A stretch of 64,000 nt of DNA from Chloroflexaceae bacterium (GTDB taxonomy: Bacteria; Chloroflexota; Chloroflexia; Chloroflexales; Chloroflexaceae), in assembly GCA_025057155.1 (NCBI GenBank), contig JANWYD010000001.1:1-64000 (forward strand), given 5' to 3'. This document shows, piece by piece, positions 30,433-54,462 of this stretch. Under the pieces are notes generated by a model, which saw only the letters and a program-made list of their open reading frames with translations, did not search any database and was not told where the DNA came from. How positions within the stretch are numbered: position 1 is the first letter of the stretch; each line of letters starts with the position of its first letter. Made by a program: the position numbers and the translations under genes.

Positions 30433-30467
30433 AGGGGCGTGGGGTAATCTGGTTTCCCCACGCCCCT
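30433..30467. terminator. bidirectional hairpin terminator, family A palindrome
   Basis: AGGGGCGTGGGG pairs perfectly over 12 bp with CCCCACGCCCCT around a loop containing CTGGTTT. It lies between convergent DUF1992 and gltB and is the longest-stemmed member of the GGGAAACC-GGTTTCCC family, including the trailing ACGCCCCTGCC. Confidence 0.75.
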
Positions 30468-47158: not shown

Positions 47159-47185
47159 AGGGGCGTGGGAAACCCGGTTTTCCCA
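47159..47185. repeat. dispersed palindrome, family A copy
   Basis: GGGAAACCCGGTTTTCCC with GGGGCGT at its left, directly before the OppB stop; second copy in the same 142-bp gap. Confidence 0.6.
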
Positions 47186-50393: not shown

Positions 50394-51839
50394 TCAATGT
50401 GCGGGCTTGGCGTCGGGCGCGCCAAAGCCGTCGCGGCGAAAGACGATGTTGCCGCCGGCCATGGTCAACATGACCTGGCCCTTGAGGCGCTGGCCGTGCA
50501 GGGGGGTGTTCTGCCCCCGCGAGACGAAGCGTGTCGCGTCCACGGTCCAGGCGGCATCAGGATCGAAGATCACGATGTCGGCGCGGGCGCCGGGGCGCAG
50601 GGTGGCCGGGGAGCGGCCAAGCACCTGAGCCGGTCCCTCGGTCAATCTGGCGACCACGTCCACCAGATCCATTTCGCCGCGATGTACCAGCGAGAGCACG
50701 AGGGCCAGGGCCGTCTCCAGACCGCTGATGCCAGGCGCGGCCAGGCCGTACTCGCACTCTTTCTCGACGCGCGATTGGGGGCTGTGGCCGGTGGCAATGG
50801 CGTCAATCGTGCCATCACGCAGCCCCTCGGCCAGGGCCTCGATGTCCTCCTCGGTTCGCAGCGGCGGGCACACGCGGGTGCTCGGGTCATAGGGCGGCAG
50901 ACGAGTAGGATCGAGCCAGGAGGGCAGTCCCAGTTCCGGGTGGGGGTTGGACTGGCGGCGTTGCGCCGAAGACGCTACAGGCGCCGGATCATGGATGGCA
51001 AGGTTGCCCAGCACCCAGCGATCGGTGAGCGTCAGGTGGTGCGGCGAGACCTCGGCGGTGACACGCACGCCCCGGGCCCTGGCGGCGCGGATGAGGGCCA
51101 CGCCACCAGCAGTGCTCACCTGACAGATGTGCAGGTGAGCGCCGGTCAGTTCGGCCAGGGCGATGTCACGGGCGATCTGCGCCTCTTCGGCGGCGGCGGG
51201 ACACCCCGGCAGACCCAGGCGCGTGCTTACCGCGCCCTCGTGCATGGCCCAGCCAGCGCTCAACCGCGCCTCCTGGCACAGGCTCATCACCGGCAACCCC
51301 AGGGCGGCGGCGTAGGTGAGGGCGTGCCGCATCAAGGCAGCGTCGCTCAGCGCCCGATCTCCGTCGCTGAAGGCGATGCAACCCGCTTCGGCCAGTTCAG
51401 CCAGATCGGCGAGCACGCGCCCCTCGCGGCCCACGGTCAGCGCGCCTATCACGTCCACGTGCACGTGGCCCTCCCGGCGGGCAAGCTCCTGCACCAGCCG
51501 CACCGTCGCCGCTGTGTCGTGGGTGGGATGCTCCGTGGGCATCGCGCAGACGGTGGTGAAACCGCCGTGGGCCGCGGCCAGGGTGCCGCTGGCGATGGTC
51601 TCTTTGTGCTCTTCGCCCGGCTGGCGCAGGTAGGTGTGGAGATCGGTAAAGCCCGGGGCCACCACCGCGCCGCGGGCATCGATGATCTCCACATCATCGC
51701 CCAGCACATGCTGTTCTTCGGCCCGGTCGGCGATTTCGAAGAGGCGCTCCACCTTGCCGTCGGTGACCAGCACGTCGCCTACCGTGGCAACCCGCTGCGC
51801 CGGGTCAATGATCGAGCCGTTTTTGATCAGGTAGCGCAT
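50394..51839 (-). CDS. dihydroorotase-like protein, active site lost (PyrC')
   Basis: A 481-residue amidohydrolase-fold protein that aligns with class I dihydroorotase, but its metal and substrate residues are replaced. HxH is H68-T-Y70, MPNT is MPTE (100-103), the HCED histidine is L187 (SLCQEARL), HVST is QVST (Q240), NPPLR is CPPLR, and TDHAPH is TGHSPQ (G351, Q355). The scaffold phrases PHHLTL, GTIDAIAT and GISGLETALALVL remain. An insertion of about 35 residues precedes CPPLR. It follows pyrR and pyrB, so it resembles the inactive PyrC' that assembles with aspartate carbamoyltransferase in some bacteria; a functional pyrC must then lie elsewhere. ATG 51839 with GAGGT upstream. Confidence 0.88.
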   Translation of the reverse strand: MRYLIKNGSIIDPAQRVATVGDVLVTDGKVERLFEIADRAEEQHVLGDDVEIIDARGAVVAPGFTDLHTYLRQPGEEHKETIASGTLAAAHGGFTTVCAMPTEHPTHDTAATVRLVQELARREGHVHVDVIGALTVGREGRVLADLAELAEAGCIAFSDGDRALSDAALMRHALTYAAALGLPVMSLCQEARLSAGWAMHEGAVSTRLGLPGCPAAAEEAQIARDIALAELTGAHLHICQVSTAGGVALIRAARARGVRVTAEVSPHHLTLTDRWVLGNLAIHDPAPVASSAQRRQSNPHPELGLPSWLDPTRLPPYDPSTRVCPPLRTEEDIEALAEGLRDGTIDAIATGHSPQSRVEKECEYGLAAPGISGLETALALVLSLVHRGEMDLVDVVARLTEGPAQVLGRSPATLRPGARADIVIFDPDAAWTVDATRFVSRGQNTPLHGQRLKGQVMLTMAGGNIVFRRDGFGAPDAKPAH

Positions 51840-51848
51840 GTGACCTCG

Positions 51849-51882
51849 ATGTTGGATTTTGGATTTTAGATTTTGGATTGCT
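51849..51882. repeat. degenerate tandem TTGGATTTT repeat, family E
   Basis: A run of TTGGATTTT/TAGATTTT units in the pyrB-pyrC' gap. Similar runs occur at 57145-57182 and weakly at 42048-42068. Confidence 0.5.
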
Positions 51883-51960: not shown

Positions 51961-51980
51961 GCGGGAAGCCGGGTTCCCCG
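51961..51980. repeat. dispersed palindrome, family A copy
   Basis: GCGGGAAGCCGGGTTCCCCG, between pyrB and pyrC'. Confidence 0.5.
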
Positions 51981-53018: not shown

Positions 53019-53194
53019 TCCCGCTTTCTCCCCGCCGCTGCCTGTGGAAGGGCCTGGATGGCCCTGCCGCCGGTTGGCGAGGCGCGGGGAAACCTGGTTT
53101 CCCCCTACTCCTGCTAGAAGGACGGGCGTGGGCGGCCCCGCTGCCAGTTGGACCCGCTGCCAGTTGGAGAGGTGCAGGGAAGCCTGGTTTCTCC
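53019..53194. repeat. cluster of family A palindromes within the pyr operon
   Basis: Clear copies at 53084-53105 (GCGGGGAAACCTGGTTTCCC) and 53176-53194 (AGGGAAGCCTGGTTTCTCC), with a weaker one at 53019-53055; each is followed by a CTCCTGC or CTCAGG and GGAAGG block, giving a period of about 75-90 bp. The rest of the 508-bp pyrR-pyrB gap holds C/G-rich hairpins (53267-53300) and no gene. Confidence 0.6.
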
Positions 53195-53497: not shown

Positions 53498-54417
<920 letters not shown>

Positions 54418-54433
54418 CATTAAAGGCGCTGGC

Positions 54434-54462
54434 ATTGTAACACCGTGGCGGGGCCGCGTCAA
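54434..54462 (-). promoter_or_regulatory. pyr operon promoter
   Basis: Minus strand TTGACG (54457-54462), 17 bp, TACAAT (54434-54439). Start near 54427, about 380 nt before the pyrR ATG. Confidence 0.8.

Follow-up and report, generated by a model that had tools for sequence, protein, structure and literature searches.

A degraded class I dihydroorotase in the pyr operon of a Chloroflexaceae bacterium, a probable structural partner of aspartate carbamoyltransferase

The pyrC' gene of the window (the whole stretch of 64,000 nucleotides analysed here) very probably specifies a class I dihydroorotase that is catalytically dead (pseudo-DHO) and is kept as a scaffold for active PyrB chains. Class A aspartate carbamoyltransferases (ATCases) are built from three DHO dimers that hold two ATCase trimers. 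By analogy with Pseudomonas pDHO, the PyrB-PyrC' pair most likely belongs to class A2: it includes a DHO-homologous chain with residues missing, the gene is adjacent to pyrB with a type II dihydroorotase encoded elsewhere, and there is no PyrI. The role of PyrC' would be structural only. The dihydroorotase reaction would have been taken over by the separate type II enzyme, whose gene may have arrived first and permitted decay of the class I copy. A sequence-only reading of the window had already proposed such a structural partner, and the proposal is supported by co-occurrence, strict pyrB linkage, purifying selection, selective catalytic loss and absence of pyrI. From these observations we infer the physical complex, in which an inactive PyrC' would bind PyrB as a 6+6 dodecamer and PyrB would depend on PyrC'. 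PyrB alone could also be a stable active trimer.

The active site of PyrC'

The reading frame runs from an ATG at 51839 to a stop at 50396-50394. Among solved structures its best matches are the class I dihydroorotases 3mpg of B. anthracis and 3d6n of A. aeolicus (E ~1e-97 to 1e-95), and it reaches 358 bits with TIGR00857 (cut-off 279). Since it passes this NCBIfam dihydroorotase cut-off, automatic annotation is expected to call it a dihydroorotase. Chloroflexus, Roseiflexus and similar phototrophs would then bear the wrong label for one pathway step.

At the eleven sites that read H61-H63-R65-N95-D153-H180-H232-N278-D305-A307-H309 in A. aeolicus DHO, the aligned residues of PyrC' are H-Y-R-T-G-L-Q-C-G-S-Q. 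Seven of the nine diagnostic catalytic residues are altered (H63Y, N95T, D153G, H180L, H232Q, D305G and H309Q, Aquifex numbering). R65 and N95 are the substrate residues of the class I family, and an active member is expected to have both; PyrC' keeps the arginine and carries N95T. The alpha-zinc ligands H61, H63 and D153 with the nearby D305, equally expected of an active class I enzyme, are incomplete (H63Y, D153G and D305G). In A. aeolicus DHO, a single zinc is bound by H61, H63 and D153 with D305 nearby, and mutation of both H180 and H232 leaves activity undiminished (PMC3880350). As these two histidines are dispensable, only H63Y, D153G, D305G and N95T carry weight.

Alignment to A. aeolicus DHO confirms all the residues listed in the sequence-only reading (Y70, T102, L187, Q240, C324, G351 and Q355), to which the change of D153 to G160 has to be added. 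The accompanying statement that every motif is replaced goes slightly too far, because H68 (= H61), R72 (= R65), PPLR and H-x-P are retained. The scaffold motifs were rightly described as conserved. The AlphaFold model, which is of good quality (mean pLDDT 84.9), predicts the fold of an intact DHO, with a TM of 0.96 to 3d6n, the A. aeolicus DHO in its complex with ATC. The degraded state is not due to chance or sequencing error, since the same-genus relatives G022-G024 and record SKW209 (L120) have a catalytic state identical or almost identical to that of the window protein.

The insertion ahead of the PPLR motif, previously estimated at about 35 residues, is indeed present, and its residues 283-303 are predicted to be disordered. 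It is unconnected with inactivation. The stretch corresponding to Aquifex 262 to 278 measures 34-67 residues in both intact and degraded Chloroflexales copies versus 15 in Aquifex; the insertion is therefore older than the inactivation and was rejected as its cause.

Table 1. Location of the pyr operon features in the window
Feature	Position	Strand	Basis
Sigma-70-like promoter TTGACG-17-TACAAT, extended TG, immediately before leader	54434..54462	-	10/12 matches
PyrR-binding leader and terminator, probable operon attenuator	54312..54430	-	RF00515
pyrR, pyr operon regulator / uracil phosphoribosyltransferase	53498..54049	-	NF003549, 246.5 bits, cut-off 138
pyrB, aspartate carbamoyltransferase catalytic chain, 314 aa	52045..52989	-	catalytic residues present
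pyrC', class I dihydroorotase homologue, degraded active site, 481 aa	50394..51839	-	alignment, profile, fold
Y70 in place of alpha-zinc ligand H63 (A. aeolicus numbering)	51630..51632	-	alignment; ligand role PMC3880350
G160 in place of alpha-zinc ligand D153	51360..51362	-	alignment; PMC3880350
Insertion of ~34 residues ahead of PPLR motif (residues ~280-313)	50901..51002	-	alignment

A type II dihydroorotase in the same genome

The genome that contains the window (5.13 Mb, 100% complete) had been predicted to encode another, true dihydroorotase. A type II enzyme was found on another contig (C6:152403-153383; 356 bits, cut-off 293). Its catalytic residues are intact at 9 of the 9 positions checked, as in all 36 genomes with the gene, and suggest that the enzyme is active. 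Proteins encoded on C12 and at C1:136 kb were rejected as the second dihydroorotase: they are dihydropyrimidinase/hydantoinase-like, fall below the TIGR00857 cut-off and became superfluous once the type II gene was found. Many Chloroflexia also have another amidohydrolase, which reaches about 250-300 bits with the dihydroorotase model (L113, L115, L116, L117, L099 and L107-L112). Several of these lack N95 or H309 and some exceed the cut-off; they are probably hydantoinase or allantoinase relatives.

The nearest solved relative of the type II enzyme is 3pnu, which we take to be the Campylobacter dihydroorotase (379 bits; the E. coli enzyme 1j79 reaches 231). Identity to the Chloroflexales type II enzyme is 54-55% for copies on Campylobacterota plasmids and about 42% or less for others. 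In the type II tree, the Chloroflexales genes cluster with Campylobacterota, apart from E. coli, Nostoc and Methylocystis. Within a 400-genome sample of the phylum the gene occurs in 27 genomes, all from two families, presumably Chloroflexaceae and Roseiflexaceae. The Chloroflexales enzyme was probably acquired laterally. The type II gene on the Sulfurovum mangrovi plasmid (L232) appears to be frameshifted, since it was matched as two pieces and has no entry in the PLSDB gene table.

Co-occurrence across Chloroflexia

Class I copies from 115 Chloroflexia genomes were sorted into intact and degraded. Where a type II gene accompanies an assessable class I copy, this copy is degraded in 33 of 33 genomes and intact in none; among the 62 without type II, 60 have an intact copy and 2 a degraded one (G002 and G027). 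The co-occurrence is strong and not statistically independent: the Fisher p of 1.6e-23 cannot be read as a probability, as shared ancestry leaves 2-3 independent contrasts.

The first exception, G002, is an 86% complete genome congeneric with the type II-bearing G001 and G003. The second, G027 (Chloroflexaceae PL24a_bin.39; L034 / L129), carries N95D and D153A in its class I copy, and a search of this 99% complete genome recognised neither a type II nor any other candidate dihydroorotase. This second exception would reflect a gap in the assembly or decay at an early stage. Three type II genomes gave no class I match, and loss of PyrC' was rejected for each: the contig stops 117 bases past the pyrB match in G003, in G052 the contig ends within pyrB itself, and pyrB is absent too in G016. 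Among the 115 Chloroflexia genomes there is thus no confirmed loss of PyrC'.

The pyr operon

The gene order pyrR-pyrB-pyrC', already proposed from the sequence, is borne out by profile matches and coordinates, and is preceded by a promoter-like site and a PyrR leader (Table 1). All 11 catalytic residues checked are present in the window PyrB and likewise in the other PyrB proteins aligned. In 35 of 35 degraded copies, G027 included, pyrB lies directly upstream.

The leader scores 42.7 bits with RF00515 (E 0.0039), under the gathering score of 54. Matches of 35-50 bits recur at the corresponding upstream site in five relatives (L134:2364-2482, L122:1897-2015, L121:1734-1850, L125:2215-2337 and L126:2102-2224), the 3' end of the window leader forms a strong terminator hairpin with a T run, and pyrR lies downstream. 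For these reasons it is read as a probable divergent PyrR attenuator. In every genome examined the Chloroflexaceae leader scores under the Rfam gathering score, so that standard annotation would miss it. The type II dihydroorotase locus was also searched for a PyrR leader element and none was found.

The spacers of the operon contain repeats. A palindromic repeat near GGGAAACCAGGTTTCCC gives 23 strand matches with at most 3 mismatches (about 12 places in the window; 0.19 expected), including 53087-53103, 53177-53193, 51963-51979, 47167-47183 and 30442-30458. Two lie inside the 508-base pyrR-pyrB gap and one inside the 205-base pyrB-pyrC' gap. The latter gap is absent in many relatives, for example L081 and L087, whose pyrC frame begins 3 bases past pyrB. 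Short tandem AATCCAAAATC-like units are found at 51844-51880, immediately ahead of the pyrC' start codon.

No pyrI was found in any of the 115 Chloroflexia genomes (0/115), while 7 control genomes gave matches. PyrC' would occupy the place that PyrI has in the E. coli ATCase, and all 34 degraded copies outside G027 retain H68. A dead PyrC' might have gained another job, for example as a sensor of a nucleotide or pathway intermediate that regulates PyrB. We regard this as very unlikely, because the pocket residues vary between genera with no single new conserved set and because no true allostery was found in the Pseudomonas complex (PMC7053772).

Mode of decay and selection on PyrC'

In each of the 35 degraded copies one or more of the alpha-site residues H63, D153 and D305 are missing. 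No one substitution is common to all of these copies. The catalytic-residue pattern depends on the genus: HQGGDHQ in the Oscillochloris type, HHRTGSR in Chloroflexus, HHRDEHH in Roseiflexus and HYRTGLQ in the genus of the window. Such genus-specific losses are as would be expected for relaxed constraint after redundancy. They also bear on the possibility that the class I copy is still partly active as a dihydroorotase owing to a changed mode of metal binding, or backs up the type II enzyme independently of zinc. Lost zinc ligands are no proof of inactivity, since a Pseudomonas PyrC paralogue without them has been reported to have dihydroorotase activity, according to the work as cited in PMC2770081. 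The Roseiflexus copies, which retain most histidines together with D153E, and the conserved H68 and R72 of the window protein would fit this possibility. It appears very unlikely nevertheless: N95, D153, D305 and H309 are lost too, and losses that differ by lineage resemble relaxed constraint more than a shared new active site.

The losses are concentrated in the active site. The 23 intact Chloroflexales copies share 128 invariant columns, 67 of which are still fully invariant in 34 degraded copies. Columns kept in less than 80% of the degraded copies comprise 9 of the 10 catalytic ones versus 16 of the 118 others (Fisher p 9e-7, computed on sequences that are not independent). The dN/dS of degraded copies is 0.02-0.11 in most pairs, with a maximum of 0.21 against the divergent G022, which is near the values for pyrB, for the type II gene and for intact class I copies. 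Low dN/dS and losses that fall selectively on catalytic columns together argue that the protein is selected for something other than catalysis. A functionless relic decaying in the operon would account for the lost catalytic residues and the presence of a replacement enzyme. It is scarcely credible, since the reading frame is open in every genome, 67 of the 128 invariant columns persist without confirmed loss of the gene and dN/dS stays at ~0.02-0.2; it was rejected on the last of these. Maintenance of PyrC' as a scaffold for PyrB is the reading that we retain.

History of the degraded state

A class I tree built without the catalytic columns does not hold the degraded copies together: those of Roseiflexaceae are placed apart from a Chloroflexaceae clade of 25 rows (support 100/98), whose sister is formed by intact copies of the same family. 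A single clade of degraded copies is not rejected by the AU test (p 0.064, with the fast-evolving pair G050/G051 left out). Two origins of degraded copies in Chloroflexales are therefore likely but not proven. The proteobacterial degraded copies L149 and L152 are placed elsewhere in the tree, which indicates that the Chloroflexales inactivation is separate from theirs.

We lean towards a scenario in which the DHO subunit changed from active (A1-like) to inactive (A2-like) at least twice in parallel within one order, in Chloroflexaceae and in Roseiflexaceae. Each change would have been accompanied by a laterally acquired Campylobacterota-like type II enzyme. The outcome would be a graded series of 3-7 lost catalytic residues (2 in G027) that illustrates the conversion of an enzyme into a scaffold.

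Comparison with known systems

Inactive DHO chains associated with ATCase are already known from Pseudomonas and fungi. What appears unreported is the occurrence in Chloroflexota, its tight coupling with a type II enzyme that was probably acquired, and the series of graded decay. No relevant report turned up in the literature on Chloroflexus/Chloroflexota dihydroorotase that we searched, which covered few subscription journals. Chloroflexales offer intact, partly and fully degraded versions of one subunit alongside presence or absence of the replacement enzyme. This makes it possible to test whether a metabolic subunit loses catalysis after a substitute arrives while its assembly role preserves the protein.

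The Pseudomonas PyrC'/pDHO (class A2) is likewise a class I homologue without metal and substrate residues in a genome with a separate functional dihydroorotase. In P. aeruginosa the requirement of the inactive pDHO for ATCase activity is experimentally established (PMC7053772), and the same necessity of the inactive chain is described in PMC2770081 and in Schurr 1995 as cited there. The window copy differs in that it comes from another phylum and, judging from L149 and L152, would have a separate origin; copies of its type are nested inside intact Chloroflexales class I sequences. It also has the Chloroflexales insertion and a probable pyrR attenuator before the operon. The class A1 DHO-ATC of Aquifex aeolicus (3d6n, 4bjh) is the closest complex structure and has the same fold (37% identity). 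However, A. aeolicus DHO is active in the complex (PMC3880350), whereas the window protein lacks H63, N95, D153, D305 and H309. Fungal URA2 / CAD-like proteins likewise combine an active ATCase with an inactive DHO module, their pseudo-DHO domain (PMC7053772, PMC4581275), but as parts of one fused multidomain eukaryotic protein, while the window encodes a separate bacterial subunit. Finally, the intact PyrC of other Chloroflexaceae (e.g. G004, G005, G019 and G025) shares up to ~71% identity, the same insertion and the pyrB linkage with the window protein; it keeps all catalytic residues, in genomes that have no type II gene.
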